Notes under the pieces: model-generated
Databases searched by the model: none
What the model was told of the DNA's origin: nothing
The model's input: the letters and a program-made list of their open reading frames with translations, nothing else
NCBI RefSeq assembly: GCF_002752675.1
Contig: NZ_CP024608.1
Location: 930,001-994,000, forward strand
Length of the DNA: 64,000 bases
DNA from: Massilia violaceinigra
Lineage (GTDB): Bacteria; Pseudomonadota; Gammaproteobacteria; Burkholderiales; Burkholderiaceae_D
Direction: 5' to 3'
Part shown: positions 2,123-17,343 of the stretch, one piece after another
How positions within the stretch are numbered: the stretch's first letter is position 1
Layout of the letters: the number at the start of each line of letters is the position of its first letter
Position numbers and translations under genes: made by a program

Positions 2123-3556
2123 ATGCAAAAAACACTGCTGTACAAAATACTCGCCATCCTGGCGCTGACCCTTGTGATCTGCCTGCTGCTGGCAATGATC
2201 CAGGGCACCATCCACGACCGCTCCGAATTCCGCGCCGAGGCCGTGGCCAGCATCGCCGCCGATTCCGTGCGCGAACAGTCGATCATCGGTCCCGTCATGG
2301 TCATCCCGTACACCGATGAATTCGATGTGACCGTGCCCGCCACCACCGATGCCGCCAGCAAGACCGAAACGGTGCGGCGCTCGGTCAGCCGGGTGCATCT
2401 GGTGTTTCCGAACCAGTTGACGGTCGATGGCCGCTTCGATACCGATTACCGCTACCGCGGCATCCACCGGGTCCTGTATTACAGCGGCCAGCACGCGCTG
2501 TCGGGCGACTTCGACTTGCCGCTCAAGTCTTCCCTGCCGCGCACCAATTCGCTCTCGCGCATTACCGTGGGCCAGGCCAGCATCGCGGTCGGGATCGAGG
2601 ATGTGCGCGGCATCCGCAATATTCCGACCATTACCTGGGGCAAGCAGCCGATCGAATTCCAGCAGGGCACCGGCAGCATCGCCCTCGGCAGCGGTTTGCA
2701 TGCCGATCTGCCGCCCATGGACATGGAGCAGAGCGGACGCGTCAACTTCGCGTTCAACCTGGCCCTGGACGGCATCGAACGCCAGCATTTTTCGCCCGTC
2801 GCGCGCAATAACCAGATCACGCTGGCTTCGAAGTGGCCGCATCCGCAATTCGGCGGCCGTTTCCTGCCGTCGACCAAGGACCGCAGCATCAGCGACAATG
2901 GTTTCAAGGCCAGCTGGTCGATCTCTTCGCTGTCGACCGCCACCCAGCAGCAGTTGCGCGCCCTGCAGGAAGGCAGCGCGCCGGCCGCGAACGCCACCCC
3001 GGCCGAGCGCATCGCCGCGGCCGTCGCCGTGGGCGGCGGCACCGACCCGCGCGCCGACCGCTTCAGCGTGGCCTTCATCGAACCGGTGAATGTGTATTCG
3101 CTGGCCGGGCGCGCCACCAAGTACGGTTTGCTGTTCGTGGCGCTGACCTTTGCCGCGTTCTTCGTTTTTGAAATTCTCAAGCGCTTGCCGATTCACCCGA
3201 TCCAGTACCTGCTGGTCGGGCTGGCGCTGGTGCTGTTCTTCCTGCTGCTGGTGGGCTTGTCGGAACATATCCCGTTCATCATGGCGTACCTGATCGCCAG
3301 CGCGGCCTGCATCCTGCTGCTGGGGTTTTACCTCAGTTTCGTGCTGCGCAACCGGCTGCGCGGACTGGGCTTCGGCGTGGCGCTGACCGTGCTCTACGGC
3401 GCGCTGTATGGCTTGCTCAGCTCGGAGAATAATGCGCTGGTGCTGGGCAGTATCCTGCTGTTCGCAGTGCTGGGCGCGATCATGGTCGCTACCCGCAAGG
3501 TGGACTGGTATCAGATTGGCAAGACCGGGACGGCCCCGGACGAGCTCGGGAGCTGA
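2123..3556 (+). CDS. creD: Inner membrane protein CreD
   Basis: CreD is an inner membrane protein of the CreBC regulon, linked in enteric and other bacteria to envelope integrity and beta-lactam response; its molecular role is poorly defined. The 477-residue product has an N-terminal membrane segment (about residues 7-27), a long periplasmic region, and about six membrane segments from residue ~333 to 460, the usual CreD layout and length. A GGGAG ribosome binding site precedes the ATG. About 1.66 kb of inserted DNA separates it from creC, so co-transcription is doubtful and creD may depend on its own or an IS-derived promoter. A TTCAC half-site lies at 2054-2058, but a full Cre box is not convincing. 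Confidence 0.92.
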   Translation: MQKTLLYKILAILALTLVICLLLAMIQGTIHDRSEFRAEAVASIAADSVREQSIIGPVMVIPYTDEFDVTVPATTDAASKTETVRRSVSRVHLVFPNQLTVDGRFDTDYRYRGIHRVLYYSGQHALSGDFDLPLKSSLPRTNSLSRITVGQASIAVGIEDVRGIRNIPTITWGKQPIEFQQGTGSIALGSGLHADLPPMDMEQSGRVNFAFNLALDGIERQHFSPVARNNQITLASKWPHPQFGGRFLPSTKDRSISDNGFKASWSISSLSTATQQQLRALQEGSAPAANATPAERIAAAVAVGGGTDPRADRFSVAFIEPVNVYSLAGRATKYGLLFVALTFAAFFVFEILKRLPIHPIQYLLVGLALVLFFLLLVGLSEHIPFIMAYLIASAACILLLGFYLSFVLRNRLRGLGFGVALTVLYGALYGLLSSENNALVLGSILLFAVLGAIMVATRKVDWYQIGKTGTAPDELGS

Positions 3557-3617
3557 GGCGCGAACGCGGGGATCGGCCCAGGGGCGAACCGTCCCCGGGC
3601 TGAACTCGGCACGCCGT

Positions 3618-6506
3618 TCAACCCTGGCGCAGCATCCAGCGTTCGAAGGATTTGCCGATCAAGTCCGGGAACGCATCGGCCCGCACCGCTTTACTGTAAT
3701 AAAAGCCCTGGGCCGCCGGGCAGCCATGGGCCATCAAAAACTCTGCCTGCTGCAGGGTTTCCACTCCTTCGGCGATCACCCCCAGGTGCAGGCTGGCAGC
3801 CATGGCGATGATGGCCGTGACCAGCGCCGTGTCATTCTGGTCCTTGCCGATGTCGCGCACGAAGGATTGGTCGATCTTGAGCGAATGCACAGGAAAGCGC
3901 TGCAGGTAGGCCAGGCTGGAATACCCTGTGCCGAAGTCGTCGATCGACAGCTGGATTCCCATGTCGCTCAACCGGGTCAGCATGGCAAGATTGTATTCGC
4001 TGCGCCGCATCAGCATGCTTTCGGTAATCTCCAGTTCGAGGGAGGTGGCGGCAATCCCCGTTTCGGTCAGGATTTGCCCGAGCAGCGAGCAAAAATTGAC
4101 TTGTTCGAGTTGTCGGGGCGATAGATTGACGGCCATTTTCAACTCCGGGTGGCCCGCAGCGTGCCAGAGTTTCAATTGTCGGCACGCCTGGCGCAATACC
4201 CACTCGCCGATCGGCACGATCAGGCCGGACTCTTCGGCGTTGGCGATGAAGTCGCCGCAGGAAATCGGCTGGCTTCCCGGCGGCTGCCAGCGCAGCAGCG
4301 CTTCGGCCGAAAAAATGATGCCGCTTTTCATGTTCACCTGCGGCTGGTAATGCAGGATGAATTCGTCTTGCGCCAGCGCATGGCGCAGGCGCTGGCCGAC
4401 GTCGAGGCGCTGCTGCACTGCATGGTTGAGCGCGGCAGTAAAGAATTGGAAATTGCCGCGTCCCATTTCCTTGGCATGGTACATCGCGGTATCGGCGGCG
4501 CGCATCAGGGAGTCGACGTCGAGGCCGTCATCGGGATAGACGCTGATGCCGATGCTGCCGCCCAGATGCAACTGGTTCACTTCGATGCTGAAAGGCTGCG
4601 ACAGGCTGTCGAGCGCCTTGCCCGCCACCCGCGCGGCATCGCTGCTGTCATCGAGCAAGGGCACGATGAGGACGAATTCGTCGCCGCCCAGGCGGGCGAC
4701 GCTGTCGCCTTCGCGCAGGCATTGCTGCAAGCGGATGGCCGCCATTTTCAACACTTGGTCGCCGATATAGTGGCCGAGCGAGTCGTTGATATTCTTAAAA
4801 TAGTCGAGATCGATGAACAAGACCGCCACCCGGCGCCGGTGGCGATGGGCGAAGGCGATTGCCTGGTGCATGCGGTCCTGCAGCAGGGTGCGATTGGGCA
4901 ATCCGGTCAAGGCGTCGTGCTCGGCCATGTGGTGGATGCGCTCATCGGCCTGCCTGCGTTCGGTCAGGTCGAGCACGAAGCTTACCCCCTCTTCCTGCGG
5001 CCCTTCGAACAGGGCGCTGGCCAGGAGGACCGGAATCAGCTTGCCGTCCTTGCGGATGTACTCCTTCTCATAGGGAGTGCAACGTCCGGTCGTCTTGAGT
5101 TCTTCGAGGGCATGCTCATCGGCCGCATCGTATTGTGGCGGCGTCATGTCGGTCCAGCGGATTATTCCCGCCAGCACGTCTTCCTTTGAATAACCGGAAA
5201 TTTTCAGGAAGGCGTCGTTCGCTTCACTGATGTGCCCGCTCAAATCGCCGATGAAGATGCCGATGATGTTCGCATCCACCAGGCGCCGGATGCGCGCCTC
5301 CCGGTCGCGCAAGGCGTCTTCGGCTCGCTTGCGCTCGCTGATGTCGCGCGCGATCGCCGACACGCCCGCGATCATGCCCTCGGCGTTCCGGATCGGCGAG
5401 GTCGTGAGCGACACATTGATGCGGCCGCCATCCTTGCGCACCCGCACAGTTTCGAGGTGTTCGACCCGCTCGCCTCGCTGCAGGCGTTCCAGGACGGCTG
5501 GGATTTCCTCCGCCAGCTCGGCCGGGATCAGGATCGAAATCGAGCGGCCCACTACCTCGTCGGCACTGTAACCGTACATGCGTTCGGCACCGGCGTTCCA
5601 GCTGACGATGGTGCCGTCGAGCGTCTTGCCGATGATGGCGTCGTCGGACGAGGTGACGATGTCCGCCAGTAGCAGTGCGGCCTGCTCGGCCTGGCGCGTG
5701 CGCTCCAGGTCCTGCGTGCGTTGGGCGGCCAATTGCTCGAACAACATGGAATGACCGCTGATCACCAGCAGGAAGGCACCGAGCAAACCGGTGAACGCCA
5801 GTCCGCCGGCCAGCACGGCCCAGGCAATCCTCAGGTGCGGAGGAGAAAAATACGGTTCCCTGGCCCCGAGGAACACGCCCACGATCAGCGTAAATGCCAG
5901 GCAGATCGGGACCGCCACCGTCTTGCGCCGGCGCCGCCAGATGGCGTGCGGCTGCCCGCACCAGGTCAGCACCAGCGGCGTGGCGACTTGCACGCCGATG
6001 GCGTCGCCGAACCACCAGGCCCACCAGGTGAAGGCGTAACTATCCGCCGGCAACTTACCGGCGAGCACCAGCACCGTCGCGCCCACGCTGGCGCTGACGA
6101 TGCAACTGAGCGGCCCGCCCAAGCCGAGAAACCGGATCACATCGCGGGAGCGGTCGAGCGCCGTCGGATAGCCGACGAAACGGCGGACCAGGTGGGCGCC
6201 GGCGATGGCCTGCAGCATGGCGCCAACGCCGATGCCGGCCGGTAGGAGCAGCGATGTCGCGATCACGGCGCTGCTGCCGGCATCGAATGCGACGCCGGCA
6301 TTGGCCAGAAACGAGCCCAGCCAGATACCCGGCGCCACGCGATTGCCGCGCACCAGGATCGCGGCCAGCGCAATACCGGCTGCGGGCCAGATGGGGGCGG
6401 CATAGCCGGGCGTGAACGCCAGCAGCAAGCCGAAGCGGGCGGCAATGTAATAGACAAGGGCGAGAATGACGATCTCGCCGCTTCGGCGGACCACTTCAGT
6501 GTGCAT
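3618..6506 (-). CDS. MASE1-PAS-PAS-GGDEF-EAL c-di-GMP turnover protein
   Basis: This membrane protein probably makes and/or degrades cyclic di-GMP. It has an N-terminal MASE1 sensor of about eight membrane segments (first ~280 residues), two PAS domains, a GGDEF domain with an intact motif ([12 protein letters not shown]) and an EAL domain with [24 protein letters not shown] and AEGVET. Both catalytic signatures look intact, so the direction of activity cannot be read from sequence. The frame is open to an ATG at 6587, but that codon lies in a hairpin (6579-6599) and the extra 27 residues do not look like MASE1. I therefore prefer the ATG at 6506, though its ribosome site is weak. It converges on creD. 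Confidence 0.9.
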
Positions 6507-6578
6507 GTTCGTGCCTGGAACCGTGAGCCTGTAAGTAAGACCCGCTGTTCGGACGAAAAGTTCTGGAGCCGGGGACGG

Positions 6579-6599
6579 CCGCGCCATCGGATGGCGCGG
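6579..6599. terminator. Hairpin downstream of the ter operon
   Basis: A perfect 9-bp inverted repeat (ccgcgccat / atggcgcgg, 3-base loop) lies 44 bases beyond the terA stop codon and upstream of the GGDEF-EAL gene. On the minus strand only a short T-run follows some 25 bases on, so it is at best a weak intrinsic terminator. Confidence 0.4.
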
Positions 6600-6642
6600 C
6601 GCTACCGGGCTGGCGGGAGCGGGCCGCCGGCGGCGCGCGGGC

Positions 6643-7857
6643 TCAGTTCTTCGAGCCCGTGGTCCAGCGCAGGCCGAAGCCGAAGCGCCGGTCCATCAGC
6701 TCGTGCCCGCTTTCGCGGCCTATCTGCGAGAAGTATTCGGCCAGCTTGGTCACCTGCATGCTGCCGCCGCGGTTTTCGATCATGGCAATGGCGCACATCA
6801 TCTGGTTGCCGCCCTGGTCGAGCCGCACTTCGATCGGTGCCTGGTCGGGCATGTTGATGGTCGCCACGCCATCGGTGGCGGCCCAGTTGGGTGCGCCTTC
6901 GTAGATGAAGGCGAAGATCAGCGCCCGCTTCATGTCGTGGAAGTGGTCGCCGTTGATGGCCAGGTTTTCGCCTTCGGCCGAACGCCCGGTGCGGTCGTCG
7001 GCCGCCAGGCGCATGTAGGGCGGACGGTCGAAGTCGCCCCAGGCGTTGCCCAGCGCCTGTACCAGGCCCGGGCGGCCATCGGCCAGTTCGTACATGCAGC
7101 CCAGGTCGAGGTCGATGCCCTTGCCGGCGCCGCCGCTGGCGCCGCGGTTCCAGTTCAGGTTGACGTGGATGCGCCCGAAGCCCTTGCTGCCGCCGCGCTT
7201 GTCGAGCGAGACCTTGTCGCCACGCTTGTCGAGCGTGACTTTCGACAGCGACACTGGCTGTTGCTGTTGCTGCGCGGGCAGGACCGGCACGCTCGCCGGT
7301 GCCGGTGGCGTGGGCGCGGCCGCCGGCGCCGCCTCGGTGCCGCCGAAATGCTTGAGCAGGGCCGACAGGCCGCCGTTGAAGCCCTGGCCGACCGCGCCGA
7401 AGCGCCAGATGCCGTCTTTCCGGTAAATTTCGCCGACGATGACAGCTTTTTCATCCTGGAAATCGGCGCCCGACCATGGGAATTGCACGCTGTCGCCCAG
7501 CTTCAGGCTGCTGGGGCCCACCTTGCGCATGGTGCCGCCGCCGTCGATGGCGGCCACGAACACCAGCTTGGCGACCGAGGCCGGCAGCGCGTCGAGGTTC
7601 ACGACGAAGCTGGCGCCACGCCCGCCCAGGGTCATGCTGATTTCATTGGCGGGGCTGGCCAGCTGGTTGTAGAACACCATGTAGCGCTCGTCCGCGAGCT
7701 TGTCGGCGCTGTCCAGGCCGAAGCAGGAGATGTCGACCACCATGCCGGCGCTGTCGATATCGAGCACCACATTGAAGGGTGCTGTCAGGCCGAGGTCGGC
7801 CAGCTTGCCTTTTTGTCCGCGCGAAAAATTTGTCACGATAGCGTCCTTTTCACTCAA
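6643..7857 (-). CDS. terA: Tellurium resistance protein TerA (TerD domain plus TerA C-terminal domain)
   Basis: This 404-residue protein has an N-terminal TerD-like domain (about 1-170, with [20 protein letters not shown] and [19 protein letters not shown]). A Pro/Ala/Gln linker (about 172-200) and a short repeat ([15 protein letters not shown]) lead to a C-terminal TerA domain (about 220-400). TerD-family domains bind calcium and act in tellurite, phage or stress responses, but their biochemical role is unsettled. It is the last gene of the minus-strand ter cluster, 7 bases after the CitE-like gene. The length is close to known TerA proteins (~385). Confidence 0.88.
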
Positions 7858-7864
7858 ATCAGGT

Positions 7865-8779
7865 TCAAAGTTCCCGTGGAATTGCCGAGCTCATCGGAGG
7901 GTGGTCGTGATGAGCGCCAAACACGTTCGACTGTTCGATGGTGCGTTCGGCCCAGGCGCGGTGGGTGGCCACTTCGCACATCGAATTATGCATCTTGAAC
8001 ACGGCCGGCGCGTCGACGTCGAGAATGGCCCTGGCCGCCGCCAGGTCGTTCGGCTTGACCCGGTAATGCTGCTCGATCGGCGCGATCTGGCTCGGGTGGA
8101 TGGCGGTCTTGCCGACCATGCCGTGAGCCAGGTCCTCGGCCACTTCCTGGTCGAGCAGTTCTGGCAGGTCGAGGTGCTCGAACACGGGCGCGGTCAGCAC
8201 GAAGCCGTACGGACGGAAGGTGGTGACCAGGCGCGCGATCACCGGCCCCAGGGGAGTGCGGTACAGGGTCATGGTGCGCGGACGGCGCAGGCCCAGCAGG
8301 GCCAGCAGGTCGTTGCCGCCGATGCGCAGCGCCAGGATGCGCTGGCGCACGCCGGGCCCTTCGAGCATCTTGCGAAATTGCCGCATTTCCCAGTCGTTGA
8401 ACACTTCCGCCGTTTCCAGCGTGGGCATGAGCATGTGATCGGTATTGCGGATCTGCTTGAAGTAGGCGTCGAAGTTGTAGCGCGTGGCTTTCGGGACCAC
8501 GAAGCCGGCCAGCTTGTCGGCGCCCGGCATGGCCAGCACGCGCGCCATCACTTCCGGATTGCGCACGCGCACGAAGCGCTCGGCCACGCCCTCGGTCCTC
8601 ATATTGGCCAGCACCACGGACAGGTTGAACAGCGCCCAGCTCAGGTCGGCGTCGGCGACCGCGTCCTCGGTGCAGAAAATCAGCGAACGCACGTGCCCCA
8701 TGCGCTCGCCATTGGCCACTTCCATCAAGTATTTGTGATTCGCCGGCACGTACAGCGACGCTCCCATCGACTTAACCAT
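7865..8779 (-). CDS. HpcH/HpaI aldolase / CitE-like lyase of the ter biosynthetic module
   Basis: The protein belongs to the CitE/HpcH TIM-barrel superfamily: it opens with a GASLYVPANHKYL motif, has RSLIFCTEDAV near residue 35 and a C-terminal GKTAIHPSQIAPI. These enzymes cleave or form C-C bonds in acyl-CoA or keto-acid substrates using a divalent metal. The true substrate here is unknown; the gene recurs in ter-linked nucleoside-metabolite clusters. The frame runs to a GTG at 8788, but ATG 8779 has AGGAG 8 bases upstream and overlaps the end of the preceding gene by 8 bases, suggesting translational coupling. ATG 8767 is a further possibility. Confidence 0.85.
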   Translation of the reverse strand: MVKSMGASLYVPANHKYLMEVANGERMGHVRSLIFCTEDAVADADLSWALFNLSVVLANMRTEGVAERFVRVRNPEVMARVLAMPGADKLAGFVVPKATRYNFDAYFKQIRNTDHMLMPTLETAEVFNDWEMRQFRKMLEGPGVRQRILALRIGGNDLLALLGLRRPRTMTLYRTPLGPVIARLVTTFRPYGFVLTAPVFEHLDLPELLDQEVAEDLAHGMVGKTAIHPSQIAPIEQHYRVKPNDLAAARAILDVDAPAVFKMHNSMCEVATHRAWAERTIEQSNVFGAHHDHPPMSSAIPREL

Positions 8780-9863
8780 CCAGTGCACTCCTGATCAATG
8801 AAACGGCGTGATACGGCAACGCGCGGTCGACGATCACGGGGATATTCTTTTCCTGCGCCAGCAGGGCCAGGTGGGCCACGTCGGGCGCGCCGGCGTCGCG
8901 CAGGATCAAGAGACGCGGGCTGCGGCGCAGCAACACGCGGGTCGCTTCGCCGATGCCGGGCTTGATCATGTTGACGTCGGTAATGCCATGCTGGTCCAGC
9001 GCGGCCAGCATGTAGGCGCGCGAAACGGCGCCGGCCTGTTCGCGGTCGACCGCCTGGGCCTGCTGCGCGCCGCCAGCCGCTGCGATTTCCAGCGCGGCGG
9101 CCACCAGGCCGTCGGCGAAGCTTTGCGACTGGTCGTGCGCTTCGAACTGCTGATAGTACACGCAGCCGTGGAAGTCCCCCGGGCCGATTGAATCGTTCAG
9201 GATCGAGCGGCTGATCAGGCCGGACACGGTGGCGTTCAGTATGCTCGACGGAATCAGGTAGTCGTCGCAGGACGCGGCGCAGGCGGCGCTGCCGGCCAGG
9301 TCGGACAGCACGTACAGGCCGCCGTCAATCGCCGTGCCGCGGCGGGCGTTGAATTCATCGATGGCGGCGGACAACTCGCGCGAAATCACGCCCTTGCCGG
9401 TCCAGCCATCGATGAAGACGATCGATTCGGGCGCGTGGCCCTGCGCCAGGATGTGTTCGAGCGCGACCAGGTCGATGCCGCGGTCGCGGATGATCGAGAC
9501 CGAGTAATGGGTGCTGGCGCGGCCATGGACCTTGGGCAGCAGGCTGTTGAGCACCACGCCGACCGGGGTGCCGGCGCGCGCCAGCGAGACCAGGGTCACC
9601 GGGCCGCTGCCGCGCTGGACGATCAGGCCGGCCAGGGTCAGGCAGTCGCGCGCCATGCGCGCCGTGTTGGCGGCGCATGCTTCGCGAAACACCGCCAGGT
9701 AGCGCTCGGACGGCAGCGATTCGGGCGAGAGCATTTCGCTGTAGTGGCGCTGGCCCGACTGGATCAGGAATTCCTTTTCCGGGACATCGACGAAGTCCTG
9801 CATCGCCAGCGGCTTGAGCAGGAAGCTGACGTCTTCCGAACGGTAACTGCCGGAAAAATTCAT
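8772..9863 (-). CDS. PRTase-PELOTA protein of the ter module (family also labelled StiP)
   Basis: The 363-residue product matches the family with an N-terminal phosphoribosyltransferase-like domain and a C-terminal PELOTA-like RNA-binding domain; databases often carry the name cysteine protease StiP. A PRPP-loop-like segment, SIVFIDGWTGKGVI, lies at about 147-160. The last ~95 residues (from NMIKPGIGEATR) fit the PELOTA part. The predicted role is transfer of a base-like group to phosphoribose in making a nucleoside-like metabolite, with possible RNA recognition. A GGAG site sits just upstream of the ATG, which overlaps the HAD gene stop by 4 bases. Peptidase function is not supported by anything I see. 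Confidence 0.85.
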   Translation of the reverse strand: MNFSGSYRSEDVSFLLKPLAMQDFVDVPEKEFLIQSGQRHYSEMLSPESLPSERYLAVFREACAANTARMARDCLTLAGLIVQRGSGPVTLVSLARAGTPVGVVLNSLLPKVHGRASTHYSVSIIRDRGIDLVALEHILAQGHAPESIVFIDGWTGKGVISRELSAAIDEFNARRGTAIDGGLYVLSDLAGSAACAASCDDYLIPSSILNATVSGLISRSILNDSIGPGDFHGCVYYQQFEAHDQSQSFADGLVAAALEIAAAGGAQQAQAVDREQAGAVSRAYMLAALDQHGITDVNMIKPGIGEATRVLLRRSPRLLILRDAGAPDVAHLALLAQEKNIPVIVDRALPYHAVSLIRSALDG

Positions 9864-10627
9864 AGGGTCTCCAGGGTGAGGCCGGCGAGCTGGGTGCGGC
9901 TCGGCACGATGGCGTAGTCGCAGGCGGCCATGAAGCGCGCGTCCGATTTGCTGTCGCCCATGCCGAAGGTCAGGATATCGCCATGTTCGGCGCGCAGGCG
10001 CGCGCTCACGTGCGCCACCGCGTGCGATTTGTTCAGCGCTTTCGGCAAGATCGCCAGGTTGTTGCCGTTGCGGTGGATGAAGTAGTCGCGCGCACCATCG
10101 TCAATCCATGGTTGGACCACTTCGCGCTCGATCGGCTCCAGGTTGGCCGCGATTTTTTGCGGGTCCTTGACCACCAGATAGAACGGCGTATCAAAATCCT
10201 CGATCAGGCGCGCGCGGTTGCCGAAACCGGTGCGCTCGGCCCAGGCGTCGATCAGCCCGGCCAGGGCCAAGAGGCCGGGCAGGGCGGCTTGCATGGCGCC
10301 GCGCATGTGCTCGAGCCACTCCTGGTCGACGCTGCCGTCGGGCAGCAGGATGATCCCGCCGTAGTCGAGCACGGCATAGCTGTGGAAGTCGATTCCCACG
10401 CGCTGGAACGCGTTCAGGTTGCGCGCCGTGGTGGGGATCATCGTCATGCCATCCTGGGCAAAGGCGAGAAAGGCGCGCTGGCCGGGCGTGGTGTACGAGA
10501 TCGGGCTGCCATCCTTGAGGAAGGCGGCCGCTTCGATCGGCAGGCCGCGGCCCTCGCACTTTTCCAGCGACTGGAACAGGGTGTCGTCCAGGTCGGCGAA
10601 CAGGAATTTATGAAACTTCTTCAACAT
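9860..10627 (-). CDS. HAD-superfamily hydrolase of the ter module
   Basis: The 255-residue protein has HAD motif I as FADLDDTLF (nucleophile Asp12, acid Asp14) and a late motif GMGDSKSDARFM carrying the metal-binding aspartates, with a large cap between. Such enzymes are usually phosphatases; here it probably dephosphorylates an intermediate made by the neighbouring PRTases. The frame is open to 10777, but the conserved HAD fold starts at the ATG at 10627, which overlaps the end of the PRTase-TRSP gene by 20 bases, as typical of this tightly packed operon. The substrate cannot be told from sequence. Confidence 0.85.
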   Translation of the reverse strand: MLKKFHKFLFADLDDTLFQSLEKCEGRGLPIEAAAFLKDGSPISYTTPGQRAFLAFAQDGMTMIPTTARNLNAFQRVGIDFHSYAVLDYGGIILLPDGSVDQEWLEHMRGAMQAALPGLLALAGLIDAWAERTGFGNRARLIEDFDTPFYLVVKDPQKIAANLEPIEREVVQPWIDDGARDYFIHRNGNNLAILPKALNKSHAVAHVSARLRAEHGDILTFGMGDSKSDARFMAACDYAIVPSRTQLAGLTLETL

Positions 10628-11771
10628 GGGTCTCGGTCTTAAAATGGAAAAGACGCGCTTTGAGCGTGTCTGCAAGGTCCAGCAGCGCCTGTTTTGGCGC
10701 AGTTTCGTGGCAAATGAATACGTGCTCGTATTGGCCGGGGGTGACGTTATACAGGAAATTGGCGACACCCTCCCCATAATTGTCCGGGAACGTGAGCGCG
10801 GCTGTCACGGCGCCCCAGGTCAGGATCGGCGAGCGTGTGGTCGATTGCACAACGACGTTCACGCCCAGCCGTTCCAGCGCCGCGCCGAGCAGGTAGGACG
10901 GGTGCATGAATTCGCCCGTGCCGAGCACCAGCACGCGCTCGCCCGGCTTGACATCGCCCGCCAGGCGCTCGGCCAAGCCATCCGGCAAGGTGAGGGCGCG
11001 GTGCAGGCCGTAGCGGCCGAACTCGCCGCTGGCGCCACGGTCGGCCGAGGCATCGAACAGCTGGGCCGGGGCGCTGGCGCTGGCCAGCTGGCCGGGCGTG
11101 AAGCGGTATTCGCCGCTGACCGGCGCACCCATCGTCACCGGCAGGCCGAAGCGCTCGGATAGGGCGGCGGTGGCCATGGCGCCCATGAAGTTGGTGATCG
11201 TCGCCAGGTGCACGTGGGCGATGCCGGGATTGAGCTTGCGGCAGGCGTCGGTCAGGTTGAGGAAGGTGTTGCCGGTGCTCGCTTCATCGTCGACCAGCAC
11301 CAGGGCCTTGGCACTGAGGAGCAGCTCGCGCGTGTGCGCGTTCGGCGGCATGTGCAGAAACTGGCGCGGGGCGTGGCTGTGCGCTTCCTCGAATTCGATG
11401 ATGGGGGCGGCGCCGACCCGGTAGCGCGAGGTGTGCAGGAACAAGCCTTCGCGCCCGGGATGGGCGGCCAGCCAGGCTTCGAATACCCCCTGGCCCAGGC
11501 CGATGGCGGTTTCGGCCATGGCGATGAAGACCACCGGGCCGGGCAGTTCGGGCACGGTGTCGGCCAGACTGGCGTGGACTTTGCGCATCATGCCAGGTGT
11601 GACCGGCCAGTGCTTGCCCAGCACCTTGCTCAGGAACAGGAAGCCGCGCTTGGCGTTGGCGCGCGCGGCAAAGCCCATCACGTCGTCCAGCGCAAACTGA
11701 CTGTCGTGGATGTCGAGTTCGAGTTCGCCTGTGGGCAGGCTCAGGCGATGGCGCTCGGGTGCTTGCGGCAT
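10608..11771 (-). CDS. Phosphoribosyltransferase with C-terminal TRSP domain
   Basis: The 387-residue protein carries a PRPP-binding loop, LVLVDDEASTGNTF, at about 157-170, the hallmark of type I phosphoribosyltransferases. The C-terminal half (about 255-380) fits the TRSP domain found only next to this PRTase in ter-linked clusters. The two PRTases and the ATP-grasp enzyme form the core of the predicted nucleoside-like biosynthesis. The ATG at 11771 is 2 bases after the ATP-grasp stop. The upstream extension of the open frame to 12347 is in the wrong frame for the ATP-grasp gene and is Arg-rich antisense-like sequence, so I excluded it. Confidence 0.85.
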   Translation of the reverse strand: MPQAPERHRLSLPTGELELDIHDSQFALDDVMGFAARANAKRGFLFLSKVLGKHWPVTPGMMRKVHASLADTVPELPGPVVFIAMAETAIGLGQGVFEAWLAAHPGREGLFLHTSRYRVGAAPIIEFEEAHSHAPRQFLHMPPNAHTRELLLSAKALVLVDDEASTGNTFLNLTDACRKLNPGIAHVHLATITNFMGAMATAALSERFGLPVTMGAPVSGEYRFTPGQLASASAPAQLFDASADRGASGEFGRYGLHRALTLPDGLAERLAGDVKPGERVLVLGTGEFMHPSYLLGAALERLGVNVVVQSTTRSPILTWGAVTAALTFPDNYGEGVANFLYNVTPGQYEHVFICHETAPKQALLDLADTLKARLFHFKTETHVEEVS

Positions 11772-11773
11772 GC

Positions 11774-12808
11774 TCACACCAGGTCCACCGAAGTGAGTTC
11801 GGCCGGGGCAGTCAGTTCGGCCACGCGAATGCCGTCGCGCACCGGCGGCACGGCGACCTTGTCGAAACCGTCGGCAAAGCCGCACAGGGCGATATAGGGC
11901 AGGTTGGGGCCGGCCACGCAGGCCATGCCGATGCCGCCCGACATGCGCGGGTTGATTTCGAGCAGGTGCAGCTTGCCGTCGCCTTCGCGGAACTGGACGT
12001 TGAACACGCCGTTCAGGCCATGGATGCGGGCCAGTTCGGCGGTCGCTTCCATGATGTCGTCGCGCATGTCGATCAGTTGGCCGCGGCCGGGCTTCATCGG
12101 CTTCTTGCGCGCCACCGCGCACACCAGGCGGCCATGGTCGCCCACGCAGTCGACGCTGTATTCGACGCCATCGAGGTAGGCCATCAGCAGCATGGTGCGA
12201 AATTCGCCCAGCTCGGCCAGGCCGCGGCGCATGTCGTCGCGGCCGATGTGGTATTCGGCGCCGGCCAGCAGCAGGGCGGCGCTGCTGCGTTCCTCGTCGA
12301 GGATGGCAAAGCCCAGGCCGTACACCGAGCGCGAGGGCTTGACGCACAGCTTGGGGTAGCGCGCGCGCAGCTCGGCGTAGGCGGCGTCGAACTGGGCGAC
12401 GTTGTCGAACACGCGGAACTCGGCCACCGGCGCGCCGGGCAGGTTGGTGGTGGCGTAGAAACGCGCCTTGTCGTGGATCAGTTCGAGCTGTTCCTGCGAG
12501 GCGGCGCTGAGCACGCGCGTGCCCTGGGCTTCAAAGCGCGCGTGTGCGCTGGCCAGCTCGCTCGACAGGCGGCCGGGGATGAATATGTCGATGCGGTGCT
12601 CGCGGCAAAACGCCAGGCACCAGTCGATGTAGGCGTCGTTGTCCAGGCCGGTCGGCTCGACGAAGAATTCGTGGGCGACGCGTCCGGCGACGGCGTGCGG
12701 ATTGGCATTGCTGTAAATGAGATGGAAACGGCCTTCCAGATCGGCTTCGCGGATGAGGCCGATTGCCGCGTACACGGACGAGAACGTCCTGTTGAACCAG
12801 ACACGCAT
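11774..12808 (-). CDS. ATP-grasp enzyme of the ter module
   Basis: The 344-residue product is an ATP-grasp ligase: KLCVKPSRSVYGLGFAIL (about 158-175) supplies the ATP lysine, and FREGDGKLHLLEINPRMSGG (about 277-296) holds the metal-binding Glu and Asn. ATP-grasp enzymes join a carboxylate, via acyl phosphate, to an amine or thiol. In ter-linked clusters it is expected to modify the sugar-linked precursor, but the substrates are unknown. The gene sits between the TerD-vWA gene (40 bases upstream) and the PRTase (2 bases downstream), so it is very likely co-transcribed. Confidence 0.88.
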   Translation of the reverse strand: MRVWFNRTFSSVYAAIGLIREADLEGRFHLIYSNANPHAVAGRVAHEFFVEPTGLDNDAYIDWCLAFCREHRIDIFIPGRLSSELASAHARFEAQGTRVLSAASQEQLELIHDKARFYATTNLPGAPVAEFRVFDNVAQFDAAYAELRARYPKLCVKPSRSVYGLGFAILDEERSSAALLLAGAEYHIGRDDMRRGLAELGEFRTMLLMAYLDGVEYSVDCVGDHGRLVCAVARKKPMKPGRGQLIDMRDDIMEATAELARIHGLNGVFNVQFREGDGKLHLLEINPRMSGGIGMACVAGPNLPYIALCGFADGFDKVAVPPVRDGIRVAELTAPAELTSVDLV

Positions 12809-12848
12809 GAGTTGCTTTCTTATTGAATCGTAATTGTTGCTAGTCGTA

Positions 12849-14189
12849 CTAGGCGAGCAGGCGGTGTTGTTTGGCCAGTTTTATCCAGCCCGGGTATTCT
12901 GCCATGAGCAGGTCGTACAGCTCGGAATCGGAATGTTCGTCGGGCGAGCTGACCGAAAAGAAGTCGGCATTGTCGATCAGGCGCCCCGGGAGTTCATCGA
13001 GCTGTTCGAGGAAGGGGAAGTCGGTCTCGGACGACTGGAAAAATCCCTTCTTCGCCTTCTTCGATTTCCTGCCCTTGCCGATGCCCATGAATTGCCAGAA
13101 GATCGGTTCATGGCTGGCCCAGCGCAACTGCTTTTCAGTCAGCGGCTTGTCCGAGGTGGTGCCGTCGGTCACGAACATGACGAATACCGGCAAGGGCGCC
13201 GACACCGCGCTCTTGCGCTCGCCGCCCTGCGCATCGGGAAAATAAAAGCGCCGTACCGCTTCCATGGCGCGGCCGTAGCGGGTGTCGCCTTCGAGCGGAT
13301 GGGCCTGGACCACGTCGCGCACATAGCTGCGCGCGTTGCCAAGGTTCATGGGGGCGGGCTGGTGCACGCCCGAGCCGAACAGGAACACGTCGATTTCGCC
13401 ATCGTCGTCGAACTTGCATCCAAGGGCCAGGATGCGGTCGGCAAACTGCTGTACCAGCCCCTTGCGGTAGAGCGTGCCCATGGAGCCGGAAATGTCGAGC
13501 ACCAGCGCGACCTTGGCGCGGTGGTCGGCCAGGCCCACTTTTTCGAGCGAGACAGTGGCTTGCTTGACCAGGCTGACCAGGTGGGGCGCGCTGCTTTCGA
13601 TGCGTTTTTCGAGCGAGATGCGGCCCGGTTCCGCAGCCGGGCGCGGCGCCGGTGCGGGCACCGGAGCGGGGGCGGCCACGGCGCCGCCGAAGTGGGTTAC
13701 CAGCGCGTCGAGGCCGCCGTTGAAGCCCTGGCCGACCGCCATGAAGCGCCACTGGCCATCCTTGCGGTACAGATTGCCCAGCATGATGGCGCGTTCCTGG
13801 GCGAAATCGGCGCCGGAAAAGGCGAAGCGCGCTTTTTCCTCGGCGTCGGCGAGCAGGCGCAGGTAGCCGCTGGTCAGTTGCGACATGGTGCCGTCGCCGT
13901 CGACGCTGGCGGTGATCGCCAGCTGGTCGACGTTGGCCGGCAGCAGGCTGGTATCGATGCGAAAGCCGAGCAGGTCGCCGGGGATGTCGATCAGTTCGGC
14001 GCCGCCGCAGGGCGTGCGCGGCTGGTTGAAGAACGTCATGTACGACTCATCGAGCAGCTTGCCGTCGGCGCCCAGGCCGAAGCAGGCGAAGTCGAGCCGC
14101 AGGCCGGCGGCGTTCAGGCCGATGTCGATGCGGCCGTTGGGGGCGATGTTGGCCAGCGGCAGACGCTGCCCGCGTGATAAGTTTTCCAT
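12849..14189 (-). CDS. terF: TerF-like protein: TerD domain plus von Willebrand A domain
   Basis: The 446-residue protein has a TerD-like domain (about 1-168, with ACFGLGADGKLLDESYMTFFN and LGNLYRKDGQWRFMAVGQGF). A Pro/Ala linker (about 172-188) is followed by a vWA domain (about 225-430). The vWA metal site is intact: LVLDISGSMG at 230-238 (DxSxS) and FVTDGTTSDK later. vWA domains bind partner proteins through a metal ion, so this may link the TerD complex to other factors. A GKGRKSKKAKKGFF basic patch follows. The gene is 226 bases downstream of terD and 40 upstream of the ATP-grasp gene. Confidence 0.87.
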   Translation of the reverse strand: MENLSRGQRLPLANIAPNGRIDIGLNAAGLRLDFACFGLGADGKLLDESYMTFFNQPRTPCGGAELIDIPGDLLGFRIDTSLLPANVDQLAITASVDGDGTMSQLTSGYLRLLADAEEKARFAFSGADFAQERAIMLGNLYRKDGQWRFMAVGQGFNGGLDALVTHFGGAVAAPAPVPAPAPRPAAEPGRISLEKRIESSAPHLVSLVKQATVSLEKVGLADHRAKVALVLDISGSMGTLYRKGLVQQFADRILALGCKFDDDGEIDVFLFGSGVHQPAPMNLGNARSYVRDVVQAHPLEGDTRYGRAMEAVRRFYFPDAQGGERKSAVSAPLPVFVMFVTDGTTSDKPLTEKQLRWASHEPIFWQFMGIGKGRKSKKAKKGFFQSSETDFPFLEQLDELPGRLIDNADFFSVSSPDEHSDSELYDLLMAEYPGWIKLAKQHRLLA

Positions 14190-14257
14190 GGTGTCCGCTA
14201 TCAGGTAAAAGGAAGAGTTGGGTAACCGGTCACGCTATTGTGGCCGTCACCCTCAAA

Positions 14258-14287
14258 CCGTCGTTTCTGCCAATGGCAGGAACGACG
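14258..14287. repeat. REP-like hairpin
   Basis: The arms ccgtcgtttctgcc and ggcaggaacgacgg form an almost perfect palindrome that shares the ccgtcgtt...aacgacgg ends with the other REP-like copies in this window. It lies in the gap between terD and the TerF-like gene. Confidence 0.5.
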
Positions 14288-14354
14288 GGGGAGGGGCGGC
14301 GGCCCGGCCGCTCACGGGCCGCACTCATGCATACGCACCCCCCACACGTCACAA

Positions 14355-14396
14355 CGCCCGCAAGGCGCCGCCCTGAAGCAGCCATCCTTGCGGGCG
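14355..14396 (-). terminator. Stem-loop after terD
   Basis: An 11-bp perfect inverted repeat (cgcccgcaagg / ccttgcgggcg) with a 20-base loop lies 20 bases beyond the terD stop. No T-run follows on the minus strand. It could stabilise terD mRNA or partly terminate transcription before the TerF-like gene, but I cannot show either. Confidence 0.4.
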
Positions 14397-14415
14397 AGGA
14401 CCGGCGGGTCGTGCT

Positions 14416-14991
14416 TTACGCGTTGACGCCGAACGACTTGGCCAGTGGCCCCAGGCCGCCCTTGAAGCCCTGGCCGATGGCCTTGAACTTCCATTCCGCG
14501 CCGGCGCGATACAGCTCGCCGAAGATCATCGCCGTTTCGGTCGAGCCGTCTTCCGACAGGTCGTAACGGGCCAGTTCCTTGTCGCCGTCGGCGTTCAGGC
14601 AGCGGATGTAGGCCTTGCCGACCATGCCGAAGTTCTGCTTGCGCGTTTCGGCTTCGTGAATGGTCACGCAGAACGACACCTTGTCGATCTCGGCCGGCAC
14701 CGCGCTCAGGTCGATGCGCACCTGTTCGTCGTCGCCTTCGCCGGCGCCCGAGGTGTTGTCACCGGCGTGCACCACCGAACCGTCGCTCGACTTGAGGTTA
14801 TTGTAGAAAATGAAGTCGGCGTCGGCGCGAACCTTGCCGTCGGCCTTGAGCATGAAGGCACTGCCGTCGAGGTCGAACGCGCTGCCGTCGGTCGCACGCG
14901 GATCCCAGCCGAGGCCGATGACGACCTTGGTCAGTCCCGGAGCTTCCTTGCTCAGGTTGACGTTGCCGCCTTTTTGCAAACTGATTGCCAT
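14416..14991 (-). CDS. terD: TerD family protein
   Basis: This 191-residue single TerD domain protein begins [15 protein letters not shown] and matches TerD/TerE length. It has the calcium-site region ([20 protein letters not shown], then [12 protein letters not shown]) and the closing [20 protein letters not shown]. It is cytoplasmic and linked to tellurite and stress resistance, with uncertain chemistry. The frame is open to 15207, but the ATG at 14991 has AAGGAG upstream and starts the conserved domain. It heads the minus-strand ter cluster. TerD and TerE cannot be separated with confidence by sequence alone. Confidence 0.92.
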
Positions 14992-15246
14992 GTATAACTC
15001 CTTGTAACGGGTTGAGGGACACTTCACGCCAACGCTGTGGCGCTCGATAACAAAATTACAGTGTTGCAATTTCCGGTCGTAATATACAACGTGCTTGCCA
15101 GCCTGTATATGGGCGCACTTGATTCGTAGGCAAGCCTTATATTTTTGTTTTGAGGTTTTCCGGTCACGCCGGCTGGGCGTTGCTGGACAGAAATCACCGC
15201 TGGCCATAAACTGGCGAGGTTACCTAGAAGCTTCGCCACCCTGTCC
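14992..15246. promoter_or_regulatory. AT-rich divergent intergenic region upstream of terD
   Basis: This stretch is clearly richer in A and T than its surroundings and separates terD (minus) from the unknown gene at 15247 (plus). On the minus strand a TATATT at about 15080 is a possible -10 element, but no good -35 is paired with it. It is the only place for the main ter promoter. No operator was recognised. Confidence 0.4.
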
Positions 15247-15750
15247 ATGACCCCAGATCTTGCTATCCGCCGCTCCATCCGCAAGGTCACGCATGCCGAC
15301 TTTGCCTCCTATCCCATCTGGGAATGGGCGATCGATGAAGAGGTCAACCTGGGCAATGGCGAGTCCTTCGTGCGCCCGACCAGCCTGGACGCGGTGCCGC
15401 TCGACCCGCTCGGGCATTATATTGTGGCGGCCAACACCACCCTGAGCGATGGCGTGATCCTGCCGTCCTGCGTGGAGGTGAGCATGCGCGGCAAGAAGCA
15501 GCATATCGAGCCGATGTTCGTGTTCCTGCTGGACCGGCATCTCGATTTTGCCGGGGTGGAAACCACCGCGCTGCTGAGCCGGTATACCAAGCGCGTGAAT
15601 ATTTATCCGGTGCGCTGGGAAATGGCCGTGCCGATGGCGGGCGAGACGCGCCTGCGCACGGGCAATGTGCGGCGCGGGCTGTGGGAGCGGATGGTGCAGT
15701 TCTGGCTGCGCTTGCGGATCGGGGCGGGCGGACAGCCGCTGGCGCGGTAG
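15247..15750 (+). CDS. Conserved hypothetical protein
   Basis: The 167-residue product is unrecognised. It has no signal peptide or membrane segment, is rich in Val, Leu and Arg, and ends with a basic stretch (RTGNVRRGLWERMVQFWLRL). Codon use is like that of its GC-rich neighbours, and the ATG follows the long AT-rich region shared with terD. It is transcribed away from the ter operon, so shared regulation is possible, but nothing in the sequence ties it to Ter function. A REP-like palindrome follows. Confidence 0.7.
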   Translation: MTPDLAIRRSIRKVTHADFASYPIWEWAIDEEVNLGNGESFVRPTSLDAVPLDPLGHYIVAANTTLSDGVILPSCVEVSMRGKKQHIEPMFVFLLDRHLDFAGVETTALLSRYTKRVNIYPVRWEMAVPMAGETRLRTGNVRRGLWERMVQFWLRLRIGAGGQPLAR

Positions 15751-15775
15751 AGGTAAAAGACCGCTAGCCTGAGGG

Positions 15776-15805
15776 CCGTCGTTCCCGCCTGCGCGGGAAT
15801 GACGG
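15776..15805. repeat. REP-like palindrome
   Basis: The sequence ccgtcgttcccgcctgcg and its following bases form a 30-base palindrome with one mismatch. It is the core unit repeated at 1947-1976 and 50430-50459. It sits just after the hypothetical gene and could double as a transcript end. Confidence 0.65.
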
Positions 15806-15936
15806 GGGGTAGCGAAACCAGCTGGCTTTACCCGCTTTCTAACGCTGTTGACCCCGTAAAACACCCCGCTTGCGTCCCTCGCGACAACCCCGCATCCGCC
15901 GCTGTACAACACATCGACATACCTCCAACTAAGTTG

Positions 15937-15965
15937 TTGCGTCAAGCCTTTTTGCATGCTATCCT
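15937..15965 (+). promoter_or_regulatory. Probable sigma-70 promoter of the rplC operon
   Basis: TTGCGT at 15937-15942 and TATCCT at 15960-15965 are spaced by exactly 17 bases and lie about 98 bases before rplC. The untranslated leader would be about 90 bases. rpsJ is not present upstream, so an own promoter is needed here. This is a prediction from consensus fit only. Confidence 0.5.
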
Positions 15966-16063
15966 AGCCGGCTTCGGTATGGATTCGTGTGTTTTTGAAT
16001 CTGTCCTTTACTTGGTAGTTAAACAGTCAGCCCCGCCCAATCGCAGGTGGGAATGGAGAAAAA

Positions 16064-16720
16064 ATGAGCCTAGGCCTTCTCGGTCGCAAGGTTGGAATGA
16101 TGCGCATCTTTACGGATGAAGGGGACTCGATCCCTGTCACCGTTCTGGACGTGTCGAACAACCGTGTCGCACAAATCAAAACCCCTGAAACAGATGGTTA
16201 CTCCGCTGTTCAGGTCGCATTCGGTCAACGTCGCGCTTCCCGCGTGAACAAAGCTGTTGCGGGTCACCACGCCAAAGCTGGCGTCGAAGCAGGTACCATG
16301 TTGCGCGAATTCCGCGTCGACGCTGGTAAAGCTGCCGAACTGAAAGCTGGCGACGTTGTTGCCGCTTCCCTGTTCGAAGTCGGTCAGAAGATCGACGTCC
16401 AAGGCGTCACGATCGGTAAGGGTTACGCCGGCGTCATCAAGCGTTACCACTTCGCTTCCGGTCGCGCAACGCACGGTAACTCGCGTTCGCACAATGTTCC
16501 AGGTTCCATCGGTATGGCGCAGGATCCAGGTCGTGTTTTCCCTGGTAAGCGCATGACCGGTCACCTCGGTGACGTGAATCGTACCGTACAGAATCTCGAA
16601 ATCGCCCGTATCGATGCCGACCGTCAGCTGTTGCTGGTCAAAGGTGCCGTACCAGGTGCGAAAAATGGTCAGGTGATCGTTTCGCCAGCCATTAAATCCA
16701 AAGTTCAGAAGGGAGCTTAA
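16064..16720 (+). CDS. rplC: Large ribosomal subunit protein uL3
   Basis: L3 is an early 50S assembly protein near the peptidyl transferase centre. The 218-residue product begins [20 protein letters not shown] and has the conserved [15 protein letters not shown] and [10 protein letters not shown] regions (the latter includes the glutamine-loop neighbourhood). The length is a little above E. coli L3 (209), as usual in Burkholderiales. A GGAG site precedes the ATG. It is the first gene of the ribosomal run in this window; rpsJ, normally directly upstream, is missing from this position. Confidence 0.98.
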
Positions 16721-16722
16721 TT

Positions 16723-17343
16723 ATGGAACTCAAGCTTCTGAATGAGCAAGGTCAAGCAGGTTCGAACGTCGCCGCAGCCGATACCGTTTTCGGTCGTGAC
16801 TACAACGAAGCCCTGATCCACCAGATCGTCGTCGCTTACGCTGCCAACGCACGTAGCGGTAACCGCAAGCAGAAAGATCGTGAAGAAGTTCACCACACGA
16901 CCAAGAAGCCATGGCGCCAAAAAGGTACCGGCCGCGCGCGTGCTGGTATGTCGTCCTCGCCACTGTGGCGCGGCGGCGGTCGGATTTTCCCGAACTCGCC
17001 TGATGAAAACTTCACCCACAAAGTGAACAAGAAGATGTACCGCGCAGGTATCTGCTCGATCTTGTCGCAACTGGCACGCGAAGAGCGTCTGGTCGTGGTT
17101 GAAGGCATGAACCTGGATGCTCCTAAGACCAAGCTGCTGTCGCAAAAGCTGCAGGGCATGGGTCTGGAATCGGTCATGATCATCACCGACAAGCTCGAAG
17201 AAAACCTGCTGCTGGCATCGCGCAACCTGCCTAACGTGCTGGTCGTCGAGCCGAAGCACGCTGATCCGATGTCGCTGGTGTTCTACAAAAAAATCGTGGT
17301 CACCAAAGCAGCACTGGCCATGATCGAGGAGATGTTCGCATGA
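16723..17343 (+). CDS. rplD: Large ribosomal subunit protein uL4
   Basis: L4 is a primary 23S rRNA binder lining the exit tunnel. In E. coli it also represses its own S10 operon. The 206-residue product holds the tunnel-loop segment [20 protein letters not shown] (about 63-82) and matches the family length. It starts 2 bases after rplC and its end overlaps rplW by 4 bases. An S10-type leader hairpin for autoregulation was not resolved upstream of rplC. Confidence 0.98.

Follow-up and report, generated by a model that had tools for sequence, protein, structure and literature searches.

The compact run of ter genes at positions 6643-14991 of a 64,000-nucleotide stretch of the chromosome of the soil bacterium Massilia violaceinigra (NZ_CP024608.1, positions 930,001 to 994,000; the whole stretch is termed the window) raises the question of what its enzymes make together and whether its TerD-type proteins work without a membrane partner. 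It is, on balance, probable that the run belongs to a split Ter system, which would make a dephosphorylated ribosyl signal derived from phosphoribosyl pyrophosphate (PRPP) and sensed by TerD-type proteins. The run would then be the metabolite-making half of a stress system, with a small ribosyl compound as its most likely product, and the membrane half is encoded elsewhere on the same chromosome.

Gene content of the compact run

Open reading frame (ORF) calls and Pfam searches identified eight real genes on the minus strand, transcribed in the order terD, TerD-vWA, ATP-grasp, PRTase_2-TRSP (PRTase, phosphoribosyltransferase), HAD, StiP-PELOTA, C-C lyase and TerA-like, exactly as a preliminary description had listed them. 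All of its domain assignments hold, that of the HAD through weak Pfam matches together with a solved relative.

14416-14991, minus strand: terD, 191 amino acids (aa), first gene, ATG at 14991; PF02342, E 2.5e-85
12849-14189, minus strand: TerD + vWA-TerF-like protein, 446 aa; PF02342, E 1.6e-29, and PF10138, E 2.7e-52
11774-12808, minus strand: ATPgrasp_Ter ligase, 344 aa; PF15632, E 1.6e-43
10608-11777, minus strand: PRTase_2 + TRSP, base-type phosphoribosyltransferase, 389 aa from GTG (ATG at 11771); E 7.5e-60 and 2e-21
9860-10627, minus strand: HAD-IIB-type phosphatase, 255 aa; weak S6PP and Hydrolase_3 matches, solved relative
8772-9863, minus strand: StiP + PELOTA_1, 363 aa; PF11202, E 3.6e-98, and PF15608, E 4.2e-28
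7865-8788, minus strand: C-C_Bond_Lyase, CitE/HpcH type, 307 aa; PF15617, E 9.5e-92
6643-7857, minus strand: TerA-like protein with one TerD stretch matched, 404 aa, last gene; PF02342, E 4.7e-30

The ATPgrasp_Ter, PRTase_2 + TRSP, StiP + PELOTA_1 and C-C_Bond_Lyase proteins each score above the curated Pfam cut-off in one run, which also holds three TerD-domain genes and places the HAD gene between the two PRTase genes, that of PRTase_2 and that of the probable PRTase StiP. Among the five enzyme genes, successive neighbours overlap by 4, 20, 4 and 17 bases with the starts given, a tight packing. The ratio of nonsynonymous to synonymous substitution (dN/dS) for seven genes, all but TerD-vWA, is 0.11-0.24 against Massilia rubra (L107) and 0.16-0.31 against a second locus (L050), and the module genes are under purifying selection. 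The terD of the run is the best TerD match of the genome, the TerD + vWA-TerF-like protein is a separate gene in only some of the compact loci, and tblastn matches to the TerA-like protein adjoin a TerB match in six other loci (L205, L209-L213). The closest named StiP proteins are those of Massilia sp. CCM 8695 (96%) and M. antarctica (94%).

The preliminary description rightly identified the run with the Ter-linked module for a nucleoside-like metabolite predicted by Anantharaman, Iyer and Aravind in 2012, here known through the papers that cite it. All core families of that module (PF15632, PF15609, PF12500, PF11202, PF15608, PF15617) are shared, and Pfam holds Ter-named models for most of it; the core order of ATP-grasp, PRTase_2-TRSP, HAD, StiP-PELOTA and C-C lyase, accompanied by TerD-family proteins, is likewise the same. 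Unlike the 2012 module as cited, the run has no TerB or TerC in cis, its membrane half is separate and it is sited between rpsJ and rplC. The ter locus of Pseudomonas putida S12 plasmid pTTS12 (L227) keeps the same order of ATP-grasp, PRTase, HAD, StiP and lyase, with a trypsin-like peptidase, a second HAD, TerB, TerC and more TerDs added in one run. None of the eight run proteins matched PADLOC at E<=0.01, a library whose content of Ter proteins was not checked.

Predicted reactions and product

In the proposed mechanism, PRTase_2, and probably StiP too, would transfer phosphoribose from PRPP to an acceptor that the ATP-grasp ligase and the C-C lyase may build or trim, followed by the HAD stripping the remaining phosphate. 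TerD, TerA and TerD-vWA would sense the resulting compound with bound metal and signal to the membrane, acting with the membrane half DUF475-terD-AIM24-terE. The ATP-grasp protein has the solved relative 2pn1 (E 1.6e-9) and retains K114, K157, E284, N286 and R288 in all 21 aligned homologues, while the lyase matches citrate lyase beta 1sgj (E 8.7e-5) with E125, D160, G226, K227, A229, I230, H231 and P232 invariant among 18 homologues.

The structure model of PRTase_2 is that of an APRT-like phosphoribosyltransferase, with the PRPP-binding loop and the fold of a type I enzyme; its sequence-profile matches to solved PRTases are weak, the best at E 0.03. For StiP, the model is moderate (predicted local distance difference test, pLDDT, 76), and in a second structural comparison the neighbours of its first ~220 residues are largely PRTases, the nearest being the capsule ribosyltransferase CriT. 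StiP keeps a PRPP-loop-like IVFIDGWTGKG, and among solved-structure profiles L7Ae-type proteins match its C-terminal part alone. The PRTase folds and active-site motifs are supported but not proven, and StiP is probably a second PRTase with an L7Ae/L30e-like domain, a resemblance to type I PRTases that is one of fold in a moderate model.

The nearness to CriT brings in a variant chemistry. CriT and CrpP of the Haemophilus influenzae b Bcs3 system and other gPRT-PRP ribofuranosyltransferases, as described in PMC10299916 and PMC11127046, pair a PRPP-using PRTase-like enzyme with a HAD that removes the 5-phosphate, as is proposed here; CriT-type enzymes, however, add ribofuranose to glycans, and of the run proteins StiP alone resembles CriT, by the fold of its moderate model. 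A comparable two-step ribosylation, in which StiP would move ribose-5-phosphate to a hydroxyl, possibly that of a PRTase_2-made nucleoside or of a PELOTA-held RNA, before dephosphorylation by the HAD, is unlikely. If true, Ter would signal through an O-ribosylated nucleoside or a mark on RNA, in place of a plain nucleoside, and two parts of this ribosylation machine would go by wrong names in ter loci, as 'trehalose phosphatase' and 'cysteine protease'.

The names given to the HAD point in another direction. The window HAD scores 2e-4 to 3e-4 against S6PP and Hydrolase_3, right on the Pfam cut-offs, has a profile match at 1.1e-68, and finds the solved 'Trehalose phosphatase' 6cj0/6d3v at E 9.1e-34; D12, D14, D225 and D229, Asp residues of catalytic type, are invariant among 22 homologues. 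Kinship to a solved sugar-phosphate phosphatase is supported but not proven. The PDB entries 6cj0, 6d3v and 6d3w belong to the same family as the module HAD, and the HAD of the complete pTTS12 ter locus, whose gene is annotated as Trehalose-6-phosphatase, is near-identical to them and much closer than the window HAD is, with a match that spans 251 of 252 residues (E 2.2e-159). The phosphatase activity of an extrachromosomal P. aeruginosa trehalose phosphatase (TPP) was assayed and its Cys85 and Cys231 were named in PMC6838324; both positions are cysteines in the pTTS12 HAD and in the aligned PDB chain (counted by hand after removal of two tag residues), and the three entries are taken to be a P. 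aeruginosa enzyme. Assignment of the solved HAD to the Stenotrophomonas maltophilia or Shigella enzyme of PMC5435700 was dropped.

These links favour an alternative in which the substrate of the HAD is trehalose-6-phosphate or a similar disaccharide phosphate and the module serves to make or remodel a glycoside, not a nucleoside-like compound. Against it, HAD phosphatases are often promiscuous. Moreover, neither HAD matches a trehalose-phosphatase model at E<=0.01: the window HAD finds none in Pfam or NCBIfam, its NCBIfam sugar-phosphatase matches lying below cut-off, and the pTTS12 HAD matches no Pfam family at this threshold, with a sub-cut-off HAD-IIB match alone. The run is without a recognised sugar-nucleotide glycosyltransferase, and the constant partners of the HAD are PRTases, so that the glycoside alternative is improbable, to about the same degree as the CriT-like chemistry. 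A 2018 paper reportedly solved the chromosomal P. aeruginosa enzyme, and the PDB entries may be that form or the extrachromosomal one.

The membrane half

The preliminary description had noted the lack of terB, terC and terZ in the window and proposed that the system may work without its usual membrane partner. The observation is correct for terB and terC, since the TerC-family and TerB-family matches of the whole-genome search all fall outside, while terZ is a TerD-family protein that Pfam cannot separate from other TerD proteins. The proposal is not supported by the rest of the 7.53-Mb genome, in which TerC-family matches lie at 1.490, 1.746 and 7.139 Mb and TerD matches outside the run at 1.747, 1.748 and 5.488 Mb. 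The locus at C1:1.746 Mb, ~0.8 Mb from the compact run on the same chromosome, consists of DUF475 (PF04332, E 3.8e-109; also TerC, E 2.5e-15), terD, AIM24 and a terE-like gene; DUF475 belongs to the TerC clan, and a TerC-clan membrane gene thus adjoins TerD genes (L011).

A classical terZABCDEF cluster, with terB and terC in cis with terD or terE, is absent from the window, and the complete one that the preliminary description had allowed for elsewhere in the genome was not found either, the second locus being without TerB. TerB-family matches stand alone at 0.846 and 2.078 Mb; the 171-aa protein at 0.846 Mb has 54% identical tblastn matches in the TerC-less operons L203 and L204 and a sub-cut-off DjlA match alone in NCBIfam. 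At C1:5.488 Mb (L012:8034-10972), a lone terD ends against an opposite-strand 775-aa protein with an adenylosuccinate synthetase domain (PF00709).

Judged from its genes, the 1.746-Mb locus is the front half of the one-piece loci of other genomes. In the DUF475 loci of Janthinobacterium, Candidatus Nitrotoga and Polaromonas plasmid pPNAP04, the same enzymes and a TerA-like gene stand in a single run with DUF475 and TerD genes like those at 1.746 Mb, whereas two loci are found here. TerE was not seen in the Janthinobacterium runs, and AIM24 is not listed in the incomplete table for pPNAP04.

Distribution and co-occurrence

Strong ATPgrasp_Ter matches (E < 1e-37) occur in 57 of the 245 genomes of the family, this one included, and the surrounding 8-20 kb was examined for 40 of the other 56. 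Loci were labelled R (beside rplC/rplD), F (DUF475 or AIM24 in the same stretch), C (compact elsewhere) or M (neither), giving R 20, F 13, C 4 and M 3 for these 40. In 80 named loci the labels were R 17, F 37, C 14 and M 12, short contigs included; as these are the best 80 of 588 confirmed loci, ranked by likeness to this sequence, the counts are not frequencies. PRTase_2, HAD, StiP and lyase are all present in 37 of the 40 family loci and 77 of the 80 named ones, and in Thiocystis and Allochromatium terD, terA and terB interrupt the enzyme order. The compact form is common to many Massilia-type loci and therefore not special to this genome. StiP matches also occur on plasmids, in 2566 of 72,556 records.

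StiP is found in 56 of the 245 family genomes and DUF475, above cut-off, in 114; comparison of the two lists by hand placed DUF475 in all 56 StiP-positive genomes. Each of the 20 compact-type genomes checked (18 R, 2 C) carries DUF475, terD, AIM24 and TerE in one run. Among 398 Pseudomonadota genomes, StiP scores above cut-off in 12, this one included, and below cut-off alone in four more; nine of the other 11 positives have a TerC-family match.

The two exceptions, G324 and G348 of one genus, retain TerD proteins, PRTase_2, HAD and StiP in their runs; the lyase family has no match in either genome (in G343 it is below cut-off alone), and ATP-grasp is absent from these genomes by tblastn alone. 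The jumbo phage ME3 (L228:4022-10068) encodes a TerF-like vWA protein, DUF475 (PF04332, E 6.4e-93), TerD, PRTase, HAD and StiP, with no lyase or ATP-grasp annotated in the 19 kb examined. These minimal sets suggest a core of phosphoribosyl transfer and dephosphorylation, to which the ligase and lyase are additions. Two incomplete cases were also seen: in G091 (L083), ATP-grasp stands alone beside rplC, perhaps as a remnant, as 12.9 kb of its 15.6-kb contig hold no other module gene and the genome lacks a StiP match, and in G231 (L226), a genome rated 48% complete, the module genes match piecewise in shifted frames, probably through sequencing error.

Several results weigh against a split Ter system making a ribosyl signal. 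Foldseek on the StiP model returned nothing at E<=0.001, the top-ranked entries being pyridoxal phosphate (PLP) enzymes with template-modelling (TM) scores near 0.2, and the substrate after which the solved relative of the HAD is named, trehalose-6-phosphate, is no ribosyl phosphate. DUF475 is kept in 5/5 StiP-negative genomes of the same genus (G011, G052, G075, G203, G213), which marks the module as the optional half; the co-occurrence is one-way and may partly reflect kinship. No TerC-family match was found in the genomes of G324 and G348, and G496 has StiP without any TerD match, so neither the TerC family nor TerD is needed everywhere.

The last exceptions, together with the lack of TerC-family and TerB matches in the window, would also suit a compact run that is a self-sufficient Ter system without TerC or any other membrane partner. 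That explanation is slightly less likely than the two chemical alternatives: DUF475 accompanies StiP throughout the family, the DUF475-terD-AIM24-terE run is intact here and in all compact types checked, one-piece loci contain the compact form as one of their halves, and phage ME3 has its own DUF475. The ter run of G324 contains a Na/Ca-exchanger gene (L204:10580-11731; PF01699, E 3.4e-35), as if replacing TerC, hence a membrane ion protein may be replaced there and not dispensed with. Least credible is a module with one PRTase in which StiP is a cysteine protease, as Pfam and the source names call it, since no cysteine is invariant in 44 homologues (C74 in 32, C234 in 42) and both the PRPP-loop-like motif and, in the moderate model, the N-terminal fold neighbours speak for a PRTase.

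Site between rpsJ and rplC

Ribosomal protein genes divergent from terD, the first gene of the compact run, begin ~1.1 kb from it.

16064-17343, plus strand: rplC-rplD, start of the remaining S10-type ribosomal operon; PF00297, PF00573

The rpsJ gene lies left of the window at C1:924944-925228 (L214) and ends 20.8 kb before rplC. Both rpsJ and rplD were located in 11 of the 12 genomes searched; in G053 they are < 1 kb apart with rplC between, and in the other 10 they are separated by 3-43 kb. The contents of the rpsJ-rplC gap differ, including CreD (here and in G048), DUF817, a TonB receptor, a GT20-S6PP fusion and MscS, and in G056 (label C) the module is likewise between rpsJ and rplD. The compact run therefore sits where a ribosomal operon is split by varying genes, in what looks like a site for accessory genes. 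The GT20-S6PP fusion fills the gap in the StiP-negative G011 (L218:3541-5958) and looks like a trehalose-6-phosphate synthase plus phosphatase. A prolyl oligopeptidase (S9) domain is spread over two adjoining ORFs at L214:5444-7408, possibly a broken gene.

In a FastTree tree of 90 rows, all 28 R rows fall within one 33-row set (28 R, 5 C; support 94, under its own star), the R label requires four changes and C rows are nested, and a single move of the module into the site is likely. The ORF at 15799-16119, first taken as S10, is not rpsJ and was excluded from the locus counts; the tree labels used it, but every listed R locus has an L3 or L4 match. A prophage or island next door was rejected, as the lower-GC stretch past 16 kb holds rplC, rplD, rplB, rpsC and secY. 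PHROGs gave two matches for 10 ORFs, both of unknown function and further right; no tRNA was found near the site, and an Rfam scan of 3000-17000 gave no RNA element. A promoter scan of 14000-16100 gave two weak sites against 0.5 expected and was not used as evidence.

Significance of the split form

A model of PRTases and a HAD making a signal, TerB and TerD sensing it and TerC with TerF acting on it is already stated in PMC7824862, where the Ter genes of phage ME3 are also noted. For Klebsiella, PMC8115787 describes a putative set of biosynthetic genes next to terZABCDEF whose connection to the TerC complex is unclear, and PMC9933665 and PMC12054061 cite the same metabolite-module prediction. 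The view of the run as a candidate uncharacterised pathway with an undefined product therefore stands in part: no compound is named in the literature found on the module, but the module is of a known kind and not special to this genome, and what is new here is the division into two loci, the site of the compact run and the links drawn for its enzymes.

Ter-linked modules are widespread. The idea that the compact form has no membrane partner is corrected, and the link to a solved phosphatase, with the PRTase-like reading of StiP, turns the guess of a nucleoside-like product into a question that may be assayed in vitro. The split form shows which genes are the separable halves and offers a strain type in which either half could be removed alone.

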